A stretch of DNA of 64,000 bases from Pseudoalteromonas ruthenica (GTDB lineage: Bacteria; Pseudomonadota; Gammaproteobacteria; Enterobacterales; Alteromonadaceae): NCBI RefSeq assembly GCF_008808095.1, contig NZ_CP023396.1, positions 1,922,001 through 1,986,000 of the forward strand, in the 5' to 3' direction. Shown one piece after another: positions 46,551 to 52,178 of the stretch. The number at the start of each line of letters is the position of its first letter. Position 1 is the first letter of the stretch. Position numbers and translations under genes: made by a program. The notes under the pieces are model-generated. The model ran no database searches and had not been told where the DNA came from. It saw only the letters and a program-made list of their open reading frames with translations.

Positions 46551-46627
46551 TGGCAGGGGCGGAGAGATTCGAACTCCCAACCGTCGGTTTTGGAGACCGC
46601 TGTTCTACCAATTGGAACTACGCCCCT
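46551..46627 (-). tRNA. tRNA-Trp (anticodon CCA)
   Basis: A complete cloverleaf reads on the minus strand: acceptor AGGGGCG/CGCCCCT, D-arm GTTC/GAAC, anticodon arm with loop CTCCAAA (anticodon CCA), T-arm with GTTCGAATC-type loop, discriminator G. The 3' CCA is encoded (46551-46553). It lies just upstream of holD and just beyond the left end of the guaA-linked island. Confidence 0.96.
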
Positions 46628-46703: not shown

Positions 46704-46740
46704 AAATAAACAAACGGCATGCAATTGCTTGCATGCCGCT
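46704..46740 (-). terminator. terminator, probably the ancestral guaA terminator
   Basis: Perfect 10-bp stem CGGCATGCAA / TTGCATGCCG, loop TTGC, followed on the minus strand by a T-rich tract. Reading left, it comes about 40 bp after the isolated 13-bp guaA end copy, so it probably terminated guaBA before the island separated them. Confidence 0.7.
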
Positions 46741-46778
46741 TTAATATGGTTGTTCTTTCGCCGTGAGGCTAAACCACT

Positions 46779-46791
46779 ATTCCCACTCGAT
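46779..46791 (-). repeat. left attachment repeat (copy of the guaA 3' end)
   Basis: The 13-bp sequence ATTCCCACTCGAT is identical to 50603-50615 inside guaA. On the minus strand it reads ATC GAG TGG GAA T, followed by AG, giving I-E-W-E and a TAG stop: the intact end of a GuaA reading frame. This is what remains of the original gene end after site-specific integration. Confidence 0.75.
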
Positions 46792-46845
46792 GATTAATGC
46801 TGTCTTAAAACACTATAAAATCAATAAAATAGCATTATCTCTGCA

Positions 46846-46873
46846 TGTCGATACCATACAAAATACCATGGTA
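46846..46873. repeat. left-end ATACCAT motifs (possible integrase arm sites)
   Basis: Two plus-strand copies of ATACCAT (46851-46857 and 46863-46869), the first within TGTCGATACCAT, which recurs exactly at 50444-50455 near the other island end. They lie 55-80 bp inside the left attachment repeat. Confidence 0.4.
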
Positions 46874-46981
46874 AGAAAACTTGGAGACTGTACTGATCGT
46901 GTCGCCCGACGCAAAACGCTTTTAGACCGACAACTTGCACACCACAAAGGATATTCGTCCAAAAGCGGTTATTCAAAGAAG

Positions 46982-48934
46982 TCAACGCCCTGGGTTGGAT
47001 CTTCCGCTTGCCTCCACCAGACTTACATCATCACGAAGCAATGTCACCATCGCTTCATGATGTGCTGTTATCTGCTGATCGTCCCAGTTTGTATTTCGGG
47101 TGATTTCCGCCATTCTCTTGAGCTTGGGACTTTGAAGTTCAATTGTATCCTTGAAGTTTTCGGCCTTCACTCTGGGGAGGCTATTGCTGAATTTTGAGTT
47201 CGCGCTGACGCTTACGAGCGCGAGGTTGCCAAGCAGGTTAAGGCTAGAACCTGAAACAACCGCGCCCGACTGTTCTTTGTCAGGATGCTGTGGATAGAAG
47301 TGCTCAATGGAAGTTCTGAACTGAAATTTGAAATCTCGTTTTGAGGAGTCACTCAACAGAAGATAGTCGAGATACGAAAAGACGATACGGCTGATACCTA
47401 ACCCTTGTGGTTGCTGATCTTTCTCAAAGGAGAATGTCTCTTTAACCTTGCTGCGGGCATATCCCTTCAACAAATCGGCAAGATCCGCATGTTTCACGTC
47501 TCGAGGGGCTTTAACGGAGAGCCAGCGAAGAACTTTGGTAATCCAGTGCATCGTTCGCGGAGAAGTGTAGGTAATCCGAAGCATGGACTGAAGCAGCAAT
47601 ACATCTCGGGTATGTGGGTCAGCACTCCCGCCCTCCTCTAAGCTTCCATTGCTGGCCGAGAAAACATGGATGTACGTCGGGGTTGGCTTCTTGTCCCCGC
47701 CTCCTTTTTTCAGTCGCTGGAGAGACCAATCGCCATCGTCACCGATGTTTGCCGTGAATTGACGCTTCAAGATGAAGCCATCGAAGAGGTTGCGGCACTT
47801 GAGAAGCATAAATGCAAAACTACGCACCCAATCGGCTTTAGCATCGGGTACATTATTTACGGCGTCGTCAAATGACTTGATGAGGCGCTTGTCGTCAAGC
47901 AGGCCTTCGTCTTCGACCTCATCGCCTTTCATAATTCTTAGAACGTGTAGCAGAAAGGCCGGAAACTCAATAGTCGAACGAAACCGCTCGTTGCCCTCGT
48001 CTTCAGTGGAATTTGACTCGAGCTCTTTAGCGTATTTTGACAACGCCTCATCCAAGGACAACGATACCCCTTCGGAGGATTGCCTTGATGAATTGATGCC
48101 GGATTGCGGACGACTTTCCATTAGCGAAGCGAAGTTGGTCACCTCCAGCCAGGACCATTCATCACCAAATACTTTGTTTCGCAAACTTGTGTCACCACGG
48201 GTTAGAGACATCTGGACATAAGAATCCATGTCAGCACAGGAATCCCAAACCCACGCAAAGCATTCGCGTTCATATTGATTGGGCAGTTTGCTCATCAGGC
48301 GAGCCTTAACAATATCAACCTGCTTGAGTTGCTGCCCACGAGTGTTCATGATCTCGAAGTAGCGATTGAGGTCGGTATTGGGTGGCAGCGAGGCACGGAC
48401 GACAGTCACCTTCGTTAGCAAGAAATCGCAGAATTTTTCGCGTGAGCGATTAAGGTTTTCATTTTGTTTGAAGAACTGATTGATGATGCTGTAGCCTTCA
48501 TGAATGCCAGCATCTGCATTACTCGTGGAGCCCTGCGGTCGAACGTGCTCCTTAGCCGCCTCCTGTGCTACTCTCAGCAGGGCCTCAGTTGCCCGTGCGC
48601 GCGACTCATATTGCAAGTGGCCTGCATGGCCAACCGACGGCTTCTCACCCTCACCGTCTTGCTCTAGGAAGGTCAGAAGCAGATAGAGGGTTGTAAGTCG
48701 TTGTTGTCCATCTATGACCTCGAACTCATCCTCTCTTCCCCGCTTGATTACAACAAGGTTCCCAAGAAAATAGTTGTCCTGGCCCCCTACCACCGAGTCT
48801 TGAATATCGCTAATAAGTTGCTCAATCTGTTCGGCCCGCCAAGCATAGTTCCGTTGATAAATAGGAATCAGATAATTGTCAGTGAATAACTTGCCTACTG
48901 TTAACAGTTCAGGTTTCAACTCCTTCTTGCTCAT
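46982..48934 (-). CDS. DUF262-DUF1524 (GmrSD-like) nuclease, second gene of pair
   Basis: Protein of 650 aa. An N-terminal DUF262 domain has IPIYQRNYAW (residues 23-32) and the nucleotide-site motif DGQQR (75-79). A long helical middle follows. The C-terminal DUF1524 HNH-type nuclease has IEHFYPQ (H545), LGNLALVS and NSKFSN (about 543-586). This combination is that of GmrSD-type modification-dependent restriction enzymes and of SspE; the NTPase part gates the nuclease. The start overlaps the upstream DUF262 gene by 4 bp. The last residues look odd: another frame over the final 17 codons reads a more protein-like tail (see findings). Confidence 0.85.
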   Translation of the reverse strand: MSKKELKPELLTVGKLFTDNYLIPIYQRNYAWRAEQIEQLISDIQDSVVGGQDNYFLGNLVVIKRGREDEFEVIDGQQRLTTLYLLLTFLEQDGEGEKPSVGHAGHLQYESRARATEALLRVAQEAAKEHVRPQGSTSNADAGIHEGYSIINQFFKQNENLNRSREKFCDFLLTKVTVVRASLPPNTDLNRYFEIMNTRGQQLKQVDIVKARLMSKLPNQYERECFAWVWDSCADMDSYVQMSLTRGDTSLRNKVFGDEWSWLEVTNFASLMESRPQSGINSSRQSSEGVSLSLDEALSKYAKELESNSTEDEGNERFRSTIEFPAFLLHVLRIMKGDEVEDEGLLDDKRLIKSFDDAVNNVPDAKADWVRSFAFMLLKCRNLFDGFILKRQFTANIGDDGDWSLQRLKKGGGDKKPTPTYIHVFSASNGSLEEGGSADPHTRDVLLLQSMLRITYTSPRTMHWITKVLRWLSVKAPRDVKHADLADLLKGYARSKVKETFSFEKDQQPQGLGISRIVFSYLDYLLLSDSSKRDFKFQFRTSIEHFYPQHPDKEQSGAVVSGSSLNLLGNLALVSVSANSKFSNSLPRVKAENFKDTIELQSPKLKRMAEITRNTNWDDQQITAHHEAMVTLLRDDVSLVEASGRSNPGR

Positions 48935-50217
48935 TGCAGCCCCTTGATAAAAGCAACGAGTTCTTTTTCGTGGTTATCGCTGTATGGCTTACTTGCTATT
49001 GGAAGTTTGCGGACAACACTTCCAGTCATCGCATTACGTAGCAAAACAAAAGGCGATTTATTTGCATCGTTTTTACCTCGCGCTCGGTTGTCAGCAGATA
49101 CAAATTGCACACGAAGTAACTCGACCCGCAAGGCATATGCCCATGCGAATAACCTATTTCGCACTTCATCTACATCTTCATCGCCAAACTTGTTTGTATA
49201 GCAAAGTAGCGCGGCAATGAACAATTCGTATACGTAGCGGTAGCGGTAGCGACTTTGAGATGGGCCAAAGTTTTTGAAACCTCTGTCAATAACCTCTTGT
49301 TCCAGTATCTTCAATTCGTCAAGCATGAATGTCACCATCTCGAAAAATGAGCGTCCTGCGATTATCGGGGCATCAAGCTGAAAGCGGCTGCGGCCGGCAT
49401 TTCGTGCATCATGTGTAGAGGATACCGACCATGCACTTAGAAGTGGCATAGCGGCTTGTGCTGCAAGGTGATATCGCAGATTTGGCGAAAATGACCTGTG
49501 GGATCGTGATGAAATGCCCTTGAACATGCCGATGTCCCGAATAGTAAATTCGAGCGAGCTTTCGCCTCGTGACCACTTGGATATCCGGTATAAAAAAGTA
49601 GAAAAAAGCCTGTCCAGATCCTCATCGTTTACGGCTTCCCAAGCCTCAACGACAGCCACTTTCATAGCAGCGGACTCATCGTGCATTTCGCGCAGGTGGT
49701 GTGCTTTGAGCAAGTCGTGAGGGGCAAGCGGTTTGCCGCGATAGTTCTGGGAATCAAAGACCCGAAATGCCTCATCAATATCGTCCGTCACAATACGCAC
49801 CAACTGACATTTGTGACAGATAAAATCCAAAAACTCTTTTTTATCTTCCAACTGCGACAGGCGCCTTTGAAGCTCTATCCAAACTAGAGAGACAGGAGTT
49901 TCGCTGTTACCAGACATCGAAATTTGATGATTTATCGGATCTAAGGCCGCAAGAATCATTCGCAAAGTCAGCAGGCGCTGCTGCCCGTCGACTACATTGA
50001 GATACTCACCATCATCGTGAAGAATGATTGCACCCAAAACATAGGGAATATCTTTTCGTTCGGTATCTCGAAGAGCTTCGCTGATATCATCCACCAGTTG
50101 TAGAGCAGTCGATACATCCCAACTGTATGGGCGTTGATAGTTCGGTATCCGAAGGCCTTGCTTGAGTAGTTCATCCACGGTGACTGCACTAACACCGTTC
50201 TCTCCGTTAATCGCCAT
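48931..50217 (-). CDS. DUF262-only protein, first gene of pair
   Basis: Protein of 428 aa with a DUF262 domain: RIPNYQRPYSW (residues 23-33) and VVDGQQRLLTL (DGQQR at 77-81). The remainder is helical and rich in charged residues; I see no HNH, PD-(D/E)XK or other nuclease motif, in contrast to its partner. Good ribosome signals (AGGGAC and TAGGA) precede the ATG. In GmrSD-like systems the DUF262 part binds and hydrolyses NTPs and may sense modified DNA. The ATGA overlap with the next gene implies the two act in a fixed ratio or complex. Confidence 0.82.
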   Translation of the reverse strand: MAINGENGVSAVTVDELLKQGLRIPNYQRPYSWDVSTALQLVDDISEALRDTERKDIPYVLGAIILHDDGEYLNVVDGQQRLLTLRMILAALDPINHQISMSGNSETPVSLVWIELQRRLSQLEDKKEFLDFICHKCQLVRIVTDDIDEAFRVFDSQNYRGKPLAPHDLLKAHHLREMHDESAAMKVAVVEAWEAVNDEDLDRLFSTFLYRISKWSRGESSLEFTIRDIGMFKGISSRSHRSFSPNLRYHLAAQAAMPLLSAWSVSSTHDARNAGRSRFQLDAPIIAGRSFFEMVTFMLDELKILEQEVIDRGFKNFGPSQSRYRYRYVYELFIAALLCYTNKFGDEDVDEVRNRLFAWAYALRVELLRVQFVSADNRARGKNDANKSPFVLLRNAMTGSVVRKLPIASKPYSDNHEKELVAFIKGLQ

Positions 50218-50443
50218 TCCTATGTCCCTTCATTGACGCTTTTCTATTTTCTCAGCGTATTTTCCGCAAACTTTATTCACCTATATGGATACTTCGATTC
50301 CGAGTGGCGGCTGTCTTGTTCACAATTTCTATCACGAGGTGCTCCTCTGGCGCATATTTAACGATCTGGGGCATGGGTCGAGAGAGCGGTTCTGATCAAA
50401 GCGAGCATCGATGGCATCAGCACAGCGCTGCAATGCACCCGGT

Positions 50444-50485
50444 TGTCGATACCATGGCATTTGCTGATACGGTCACATGGTATTT
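50444..50485. repeat. right-end ATACCAT motifs (possible integrase arm sites)
   Basis: TGTCGATACCAT at 50444-50455 repeats 46846-46857 exactly in the same orientation. An inverted ATACCAT lies at 50477-50483, within CATGGTATTT, whose reverse complement occurs at 46861-46870. Confidence 0.4.
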
Positions 50486-50520
50486 GCTATATCTTCGATT
50501 CAGCGTCGGCCTTAAACCAT

Positions 50521-50561
50521 AAAAAATGCCATTGATAATGCAGTCAATATCATCAATGGCA
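50521..50561 (-). terminator. current terminator of guaA (island-borne)
   Basis: Inverted repeat TGCCATTGAT / ATCAATGGCA with a 15-nt loop, followed on the minus strand by six T. It lies 40 bp past the guaA stop and inside the island boundary, so the element appears to supply guaA with a replacement terminator. Confidence 0.6.
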
Positions 50562-50600
50562 CTCACTAAATCAAATAAAACAATAGGCTAAATAATAGCC

Positions 50601-52178
50601 TCATTCCCACTCGATAGTCGCTGGCGGCTTACCTGAGATGTCATACACCACGCGAGAAATACCATCGATTTCGTTAATAATACGGTTAGACACCTTGCCA
50701 AGGAATTCATAGGGTAAGTGTGACCAACGCGCGGTCATAAAGTCGATGGTTTCAACACAACGTAGGCTTACGACCCAGTCATATTTACGGGCATCACCCA
50801 TCACCCCGACCGAGCGCACTGGCAAGAACACCGTGAAGGCTTGGCTTACTTTGTGATAAAGCTCCGCCTTGTGCAGCTCTTCGATGAAAATAGCATCAGC
50901 GCGACGGAGCAAGTCGCAATACTCTTTCTTAATTTCACCCAGTACCCGTACACCTAGGCCTGGGCCTGGGAATGGGTGGCGATACAACATGTCATAAGGA
51001 AGACCCAGCTCAAGGCCTATCTTGCGTACTTCGTCTTTGAACAATTCACGCAGCGGCTCAACAAGGCCCAGCTTCATGTCTTCTGGCAAACCACCAACAT
51101 TGTGGTGTGATTTGATGACATGGGCTTTACCGGTCGCCGAGGCGGCTGATTCAATTACATCTGGGTAGATAGTTCCTTGCGCCAACCACTGCGCATTCAC
51201 ACGTTTGCCCGCTTCTTCATTGAATACATCAACAAAGGTGTAACCAATGGCTTTACGTTTAGCTTCTGGCTCATCAATCCCTTCTAAGGCTCTCAAAAAG
51301 CGCTCTTCGGCATCTATTTTGATGATATTGAGGCCAAAGTGGTCGCCGAACATATCCATCACCTGTTCGCCTTCGTTCAAGCGTAACAGGCCGTTGTCAA
51401 CAAACACACAAGTTAGTTTATCGCCAATGGCTTTATGAATAAGCATCGCCACGACAGACGAGTCTACCCCACCGGATAGGCCTAAGATCACTTCTTCGTC
51501 ACCGACTTTTTCACGAATACGCTCAACAGCATCTTCGATGATTTGCGCGGGTGTCCAAAGCTTTTCACAACCACAGATATCAACCACAAAGCGCTCTAAC
51601 AGACGCAGACCTTGAAGTGTATGAGTCACTTCTGGGTGGAACTGCACGCCATAAAAACGTTTTTCTTCCCATGACATCGCTGCATGGGGACAAGTGTCTG
51701 TTCTCGCTGTGGTAGCAAACTGAGGGGGAGTTTCTTCTACTTTATCGCCGTGGCTCATCCATACATCAAGCAGACCGTTACCGTTGTCGCCAAGGTGATC
51801 TTCAATGGCTTCAAACAAGGCACAATTACCTACTTTTTCCACTTGCGCATAGCCAAACTCTTTCTTATCAGAGCCGTGTACTTTACCGCCAAGCTGCGCC
51901 GCCATGGTTTGCATGCCATAACACACACCCAGAACCGGAACACCCGCTTCAAATACGTAGTCAGGCGCACGCGGGCTGCCCTCTTCGACTGTAGATTCAG
52001 GGCCACCAGATAAAATGATGCCTTGCGGGTTAAATTCACGAATTTGCTCTTCCGTTACATCCCACGCCCATAATTCACAGTAAACGCCTATTTCACGCAC
52101 GCGGCGGGCGATCAGCTGGGTGTACTGCGAACCAAAGTCGAGGATCAATATACGGGAATCATGGATGTCTTTGCTCAT
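50601..52178 (-). CDS. guaA: GMP synthase (glutamine-hydrolysing)
   Basis: Makes GMP from XMP, ATP and glutamine (525 aa, as in E. coli). The class I amidotransferase domain has GVCYGMQ (catalytic Cys) and FHPEVTHT. The ATP pyrophosphatase P-loop is LSGGVDSSV. The C-terminal dimerisation domain ends in the invariant PATIEWE. Its stop codon and following DNA belong to the island: the 13-bp attachment repeat covers the last codons (50603-50615), and the stop is now TGA. Confidence 0.97.
50603..50615 (-). repeat. right attachment repeat within the guaA 3' end
   Basis: ATTCCCACTCGAT, encoding the IEWE end of GuaA, identical to 46779-46791 in the same orientation. Together the two define the island ends. 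Confidence 0.75.

Follow-up and report, generated by a model that had tools for sequence, protein, structure and literature searches.

The guaA-linked block and its two genes

At the 3' end of guaA in Pseudoalteromonas ruthenica lies a 3.8-kb block whose main contents are two overlapping DUF262 genes. It occupies positions 46779–50615 of the window, the 64,000-nucleotide stretch of contig NZ_CP023396.1 (1,922,001–1,986,000, forward strand) that we analyzed, and is enclosed by two copies of ATTCCCACTCGAT, at 46779–46791 and 50603–50615. The features of the locus, in window positions, are the following:

46551–46627, minus strand: tRNA-Trp gene, the neighbor of guaA in empty-site relatives
46712–46741, minus strand: hairpin, the probable original guaA terminator, now 3' of the inserted genes (basis: the empty-site arrangement)
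46779–46791, plus strand: distal attachment (att) repeat, an exact 13-bp repeat with two copies in the genome
46781–46788, plus strand: core TCCCACTC/GAGTGGGA within the distal repeat, the same as in GIsul2 att sites (PMC9376610, accessible part)
46851–46869, plus strand: P' arm, two ATACCAT direct repeats with a 12-bp period, 70 and 82 bp from the core start (pattern match)
46982–48934, minus strand: predicted nuclease subunit of 650 aa, GmrSD_N (DUF262) plus GmrSD_C (DUF1524, His-Me finger), from Pfam and motifs
48931–50217, minus strand: predicted partner subunit of 428 aa, GmrSD_N (DUF262) plus DUF7834, from Pfam and motifs
50449–50532, plus strand: P arm, with ATACCAT at 50449, inverted ATGGTAT at 50477 and ATGCCAT at 50526, positions shared with HigBA units described below
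50585–50601, minus strand: terminator-like hairpin immediately past the guaA stop (hairpin scan)
50603–50615, plus strand: proximal att repeat within the guaA 3' end, an exact repeat with its core at 50605–50612
50601–52178, minus strand: guaA, whose final codons contain the att core and whose reading frame is intact

The initial annotation of this DNA, made from the sequence alone, had described identical 13-bp repeats of the guaA end on both sides of the block, and their coordinates hold. It had also raised the objection that the repeat might be spread through the genome by chance; ATTCCCACTCGAT occurs twice in the 4,117,705 bases of the two contigs, both times at a block end, and the backwards control gave no occurrence. 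The G+C content of the 3.8-kb unit (47.3%) and of the rest of the window (47.9%) gives no compositional sign of foreign origin. The block seems to supply its own terminator-like hairpin just behind the guaA stop, a site that carries little weight because the window holds 4 such sites and 4.1 are expected in shuffles.

The two large open reading frames (ORFs) overlap, as first annotated, in this case by 4 bp, and lie on the same strand as guaA. Both products matched Pfam families above the cut-offs, the 428-aa protein with GmrSD_N (100.7 bits) and DUF7834 (186.6 bits) and the 650-aa protein with GmrSD_N (119 bits) and GmrSD_C (55.7 bits; cut-off 23). No Pfam match to GmrSD_C was obtained for the 428-aa partner. 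The earlier DUF262/DUF1524 label stands as a GmrSD assignment, with the nuclease domain confined to the 650-aa protein rather than present in both. Two smaller ORFs scanned inside or across the block had no Pfam match, and DUF7834 had no second occurrence in the genome. As expected of GmrSD-type (type IV) restriction systems, the N-terminal DUF262 domains of both proteins carry the QR, DGQQR and FxxxN motifs (Pfam and alignments), all invariant in alignments of 41 sequences for the 650-aa protein and 47 for the 428-aa protein. Equally invariant in the former are H545, N570 and N579, the H...N...N residues of the DUF1524 His-Me nuclease. By ORF motif, an adjacent pair of DGQQR-bearing ORFs was present in all 11 distant loci compared. 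Furthermore, dN/dS ratios of 0.14–0.50 for ORF1 and 0–0.14 for ORF2 indicate purifying selection.

Together, these domains and motifs suggest a role in phage defense, and the gene pair looks like a two-protein GmrSD-type restriction system with a TgvAB-like architecture. The cargo would form a two-protein, probably nucleoside triphosphate-dependent, modification-sensing restriction complex in which both subunits sense through DUF262 and the 650-aa protein cuts through its His-Me nuclease. Such a complex may protect the host against phages with modified DNA.

Two other roles of the pair were considered. The closest solved folds of both structural models are DndI and SspE, which could mean that the pair works like these proteins and needs phosphorothioation of the host DNA. 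The 650-aa model has a moderate pLDDT (73.7) and its Foldseek TM-scores are low; the 428-aa model (pLDDT 84.4) also matches BrxU, and its DUF7834 part, searched as part of the whole-protein model, showed no clear separate fold. The genome itself encodes a DndE on its second contig (G000 259947–260255; L179). Against phosphorothioate dependence, the search that found this DndE found none in six other host genomes (Ssp-type modification genes were not searched for), and no modification gene was seen among the ORFs of the unit. We regard this dependence as improbable. More improbable still is a role in serving the element itself, for example by excluding competing guaA islands, which would suit the ParB/sulfiredoxin fold of DUF262 and the location of the unit where rival islands integrate. 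Adjacent-DGQQR relatives occur in records of Actinomycetota, Sphingobacterium and Myxococcales (compared by ORF pair), and restriction systems that have been tested possess the same set of domains (PMC11411939, accessible part). Exclusion would also be partial at best because tandems with other guaA islands exist.

Insertion, host junctions, and spread

We examined guaA in 41 genomes and obtained flanks for 30, own included; the other 29 comprise 24 from the genus and 5 from the order. In 14 of these 29 relatives, all within the genus, only 145–239 bp separate the guaA stop from tRNA-Trp and the block is absent. This is the empty site that the initial annotation had predicted. The tRNA lies about 1.25 kb from guaA in two further relatives and was not found inside the fetched guaA flank in the remaining 13. 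In the window, tRNA-Trp and the probable old terminator lie beyond the block. Because empty-site relatives have guaA directly before tRNA-Trp, the hairpin at 46712–46741 is most likely the old guaA terminator, displaced behind the inserted genes. The combination of core and P' arm is absent from the fetched flanks of all 29 relatives, and an exact ATACCATG was not found in six longer flanks (L086–L091). DUF262 relatives occur in 23 of 108 genomes of the genus (own included); the best near-full-length ones are 35–38% identical, and a local origin of the cargo was rejected on these grounds.

Copies of the unit are found far outside the genus. Searching genome contigs with the 428-aa protein yielded 17 loci; in six of them, from Providencia rettgeri, Shewanella indica, Mangrovibacter yixingensis, Kluyvera georgiana, Buttiauxella agrestis and Kluyvera sichuanensis, ORF2 is 96–100% identical. 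The DNA alignment spans the unit in all six loci and extends into guaA in five. Computed without gap columns, the identity of the unit is 99.1–99.4% for the Providencia, Shewanella, Mangrovibacter, K. georgiana and Escherichia coli A30 copies. It is 99.3% on one Klebsiella plasmid and falls to 95.7% in K. sichuanensis and 95.6% in Buttiauxella. The guaA genes, by comparison, are 73.2–75.8% identical (L033–L036 and L038; 74.5% for E. coli A30). Recent movement of the unit between genera as one piece is supported by this contrast, about 99% identity across genera whose guaA genes share 73–76%.

The junctions point to where the exchange took place. In five of the six loci the unit adjoins the guaA gene of its host and ends at a second copy of the core. 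The codon before the core (ATT or ATC) and the base after it (G or A) differ between the two copies in four of the five guaA-joined loci, which places the exchange inside GAGTGGGA, the sequence proposed as the GIsul2 core (PMC9376610, accessible part). In the fifth locus, K. georgiana, only the base after the core is informative. The window fits at the outer codon only, the base after its proximal core being A rather than G. An ordinary homologous exchange through the guaA flanks, by transformation or transduction, would also leave a conserved guaA beside the block, as seen in most chromosomal copies examined. However, a donor guaA would be expected to come along, which disfavors this route: the unit adjoins the host's own gene in those five loci, and at the att core an identity of about 99% (95.7% for K. 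sichuanensis) gives way to 73–76%. We consider homologous exchange barely credible. The earlier description of a compact, recently mobile cassette at guaA is thus borne out by the cross-genus identity and the host guaA junctions.

The unit is also present in 80 of 5,426 complete E. coli genomes, 77 of which hold at least 80% of it. Among the 60 of these 80 copies that were listed, 39 touch guaA directly and 21 do not, one of the 21 being on a plasmid. Plasmid carriage extends to 468 of 72,556 plasmid records, 464 of them from Klebsiella and 394 typed as conjugative; in the two plasmid copies examined, the unit sits between umuDC-like and partition genes. Carriage by phages was rejected because none of 50,697 phage records matched the unit. 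An exchange of cargo among the E. coli copies was likewise rejected, since the right-end query matched 80 records, the left-end query 78 and the whole unit 80; a few other arrangements could still exist because the lists were compared by totals, with 60 of each listed. In E. coli HKUOPY1 (L097, 3666–12245), a broken DUF262 unit lies beside ISSen4 and adjoins a sul2/aph/tet(A) region that ends in an att end of the CR2-sul2 type.

Attachment-site anatomy and a probable borrowed integrase

As in GIsul2-family att sites, the GAGTGGGA core of the unit lies at the guaA 3' end and the junctions fall in the core, with both sides informative in four of five loci. The likeness extends to the arms. The distal ends of five E. 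coli guaA islands (PS1Thumoskin9, D72, ABW_A32, EcPF16 and HKUOPY1, those of D72 and ABW_A32 being alike) have two ATACCAT repeats, at 69 and 81 bp; three of the ends match both exactly, and in the other two one repeat is altered. Both repeats are exact in the CR2-sul2 type end of HKUOPY1 (L097), 303 bp from sul2, and in two Klebsiella plasmids the flank to the right of the unit has ATGCCAT at the same places. Left out of this comparison were L094, whose end is identical to that of PS1Thumoskin9 (L083), and L098. Outside the core and repeats the island ends look unalike. A search pattern built on this arrangement (core, 56–61 bases, then ATRCCAY-N5-ATRCCAT) occurs once in the window, at the unit, and in none of 100 window shuffles. 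It was found in 17 of 369 genomes of the class (own included), which the named relatives suggest to be Gammaproteobacteria, with none in the backwards control.

The opposite arm is also shared. Counting outward from the guaA core, the window P arm has ATGGYAT at 80, ATACCAT at 129 and ATGGTAT at 157, and the K. sichuanensis copy of the unit has a fourth repeat at 92; in the E. coli copy the sites are displaced by a single base. An integrase-bearing island in genome G456 shows the same four-site layout moved by 61 bp (ATGGTAT at 141 and 153, ATACCAT at 190, ATGGTAT at 218). In the P arm of PS1Thumoskin9, only the sites at 218 and 286 are exact. We also observed a truncated GIsul2-type integrase at guaA, with arm motifs near, in a member of another family of the order (L085, 12587–13336; ORF of 249 aa, 81% identical over 227 residues).

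No integrase was found in the unit by ORF inspection, Pfam or tblastn with five integrases, and its ORFs showed no relaxase or transposase. The unit thus has the makeup of a cis-mobilizable element (CIME), with attL and attR present and integrase and transfer genes absent from its ORFs. Viral contigs indicate which enzyme belongs to these sites. In 7 of 11 viral contigs with the core and arm, a GIsul2-type integrase (56–79% identical) lies across the core from the arm, and in the five with a full-length match the gene starts 312–345 bp from the core; the other four had no integrase in the fetched stretch. Because these seven show the order expected of attP, the core-arm pattern and the integrase belong together. 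The unit also occurs in tandem with islands. In PS1Thumoskin9, guaA is followed in turn by a tyrosine integrase, an island with traJ/trbJ/trbL and type I restriction genes, an att core, the DUF262 unit, a second att core and yfgI. Seven E. coli copies without contact to guaA were inspected, and each of them has a trbJ/trbL island on the guaA side; in six the integrase end of the island was past the fetched flank.

GIsul2 integrase is known to excise and integrate the CR2-sul2 unit, which has no integrase (PMC9376610, accessible part). By analogy, a borrowed GIsul2-family integrase most likely moves the DUF262 unit. The two block ends together form what looks like an att site for tyrosine integrases of this family. 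An incoming guaA island could provide an integrase that excises and integrates the unit in trans or, alternatively, could carry the unit in cis as part of a tandem. Integration would restore the final guaA codons and stop. We therefore favor, with good though not full confidence, the reading that the block is a non-autonomous, site-specifically integrated unit that is moved by a borrowed integrase and carries a modification-sensing restriction complex. The initial annotation had recognized the insertion and the mobility; what it lacked was the integrase-less nature of the unit, its GIsul2-type att arms and its likeness to a wider class.

Several observations weigh against this reading. The evidence is wholly comparative, with no excision product or activity seen. 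A local helper was rejected: the closest integrase in the genome is only 29% identical and, although 65 of 108 genomes of the genus have an integrase match at 1e-20, the best full-length one listed is 36% identical and one partial match reaches 38%. No present helper was therefore found here. At the att sites, one of the four P-arm repeats is degenerate in the window, the proximal core of Buttiauxella lacks one base and adjoins DNA other than guaA, and in both plasmid copies examined the core on one side is imperfect. The end of one E. coli island (L098) shows the variant core CCCCACTC with ATACCAC at 81 and an unrecognizable first repeat. For the cargo proteins, NCBIfam gave no match, and the best PADLOC matches were to the HEC-06 and Orf5 models, with the best stretches N-terminal.

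The unit could instead be a decayed guaA island, a classical CIME that lost its integrase and transfer genes and spread only by accretion with other islands. A review of integrative and mobilizable elements describes CIMEs as remnants of this kind (PMC5704250, accessible part), tandems with island genes exist, and a GIsul2-type integrase remnant of 60 aa (65%) is found immediately beyond the distal end of the Providencia unit (L033, 13752–13931). However, the 3.8-kb boundaries are identical across the genera examined, whether or not an island is adjacent, and the direct contact with guaA in 39 of the listed E. coli copies and the tandem occurrence of similar small units with other cargo also speak against decay. 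Decay is a possible history, which we rate as clearly less probable than a mobile unit. The two are compatible, as a remnant may have become a stable unit.

Other integrase-less units and known systems

The core-arm pattern recurs within 0.8–3.8 kb in 6 of the 16 other genomes that have it. Units were cut from core to core, and an end profile then found further copies, some with a variant core. This gave 17 further units of 0.8–16.6 kb from 11 genomes of the same class. Seven of the 17 abut guaA; for the others, the contig ends or guaA is on another contig. Three units stand in a row ending at guaA in G373 (3.0, 0.8 and 1.6 kb) and again in G431 (5.8, 1.1 and 6.7 kb). Their left arm is partly a product of construction because the units were found with the left-arm pattern. 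The right arm is independent of the search: the HigBA units of G373 and G335 have repeats at 80, 92, 129 and 157, as does the DUF262 unit. Two repeats 12 bp apart are seen in three more units, at 81/93, 143/155 or 146/158. Among 12 listed units, the right-hand motif pair is present in 5 and missing in 7. Several of the right ends in L148, L149, L153 (at 9298), L154, L156 and L157 have repeated TGCCAG/TTGCC near the core and no ATACCAT pair, stretches that are perhaps a second type of arm.

The cargo of these units is varied. Pfam assigned the 20 unit proteins scanned to ParE, ParD, Phd/YefM, HigB, helix-turn-helix (HTH), Fic, nucleotidyltransferase and TOTE primase families, as well as to LysR regulators, HPP, CBS, GST and LigB, and identified no integrase among them; the scan covered the units other than G365_1, G138_2 and the three in G431, some of their ORFs excepted. 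In one guaA-linked unit (L153, 9298–12281), a TOTE-type primase gene accompanies a HigB-type toxin and an HTH gene. Searches with the five integrases by tblastn gave no match in the array loci (L147–L163), which cover all but part of the 16.6-kb G138 unit; the whole G138 genome had no match at 1e-30. Across the 16 whole genomes, ten had no match at this threshold, five had distant ones (best 30–35%) and G456 alone had a close one (83%), with integrase and arm about 74 kb apart on a contig that also holds guaA.

Each unit seems to move on its own. Between G373 and G335 the HigBA unit shows 97.4% identity across 1,078 bases and 93% across 390, and the guaA genes of the two genomes share 69.5%; the G335 unit contains extra DNA and its contig starts at the unit end. 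The ParDE units of G373 and G199 are 80% identical. The tandem units suggest a cassette habit like that of integrons. We propose, and give even odds to, the idea that the guaA 3' end is the entry to a second, integron-like cassette system in which attP-like units are stacked by visiting GIsul2-family integrases. Genomes free of integrase would in this way gather defense, toxin-antitoxin and metabolic cassettes, with the DUF262 unit as the widest-travelled member found here.

Neither the DUF262 unit nor cassette arrays at guaA are named in the titles and abstract openings listed by searches of the open literature, which is no proof of absence, and the accessible part of PMC9376610 does not mention DUF262. 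The unit packs a predicted defense system into what appears to be a minimal site-specific integration unit, leaves the enzyme to others, and is found nearly unchanged in several genera and on conjugative plasmids. Island finders commonly use the integrase gene as a marker, and the arm-site pattern is a simple handle for finding such units without it. If the arrays prove to be what they look like, a widespread housekeeping gene would be home to a cassette system, of which the resistance-gene unit CR2-sul2 is the only member described in the literature examined. That one integrase acting in trans moves many units with unrelated cargo is a directly testable idea.

Known systems resemble the locus in different respects. 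Like the guaA arrays, integron cassette arrays consist of small units without recombinase genes in tandem at one site, and several toxin-antitoxin units occur here. The likeness is behavioral only, as the guaA arrays have a GIsul2-type core and arms, their units reach 16.6 kb, and no integrase gene was found in the array loci (tblastn with the five integrases; IntI and attC were not searched for). The likeness of the cargo to TgvAB of Vibrio cholerae VPI-2 is one of architecture. The two tgvAB products both have DUF262 with QR, DGQQR and FxxxN, and DUF1524 is present only in the second (PMC11411939, accessible part), as in the DUF262 partner and DUF262-DUF1524 protein of the window. Unlike the unit, TgvAB lies inside a type I restriction operon, and the partner encoded in the unit has DUF7834. 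The H47 microcin island of E. coli is also small, lacks recombinase genes of its own and moves by outside functions, whereas it measures 13 kb and has extensive imperfect repeats (PMC3191183, accessible part). CIMEs share attL and attR, the lack of integration and transfer genes, and the tandem arrangement with islands. Whereas CIMEs are described as decayed, the DUF262 unit keeps the same minimal ends across several genera and is frequently found on its own.

The closest parallel is CR2-sul2, which has no integrase of its own, has GAGTGGGA att cores at guaA and is moved by the GIsul2 integrase (PMC9376610, accessible part). Its end in L097 has the +69/+81 arm pair. CR2-sul2 differs in carrying an ISCR transposase and resistance genes, whereas the DUF262 unit carries only two defense-type genes. 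The block is an integrase-less att unit like CR2-sul2, loaded with defense-type genes, and it probably belongs to a wider cassette-like class.

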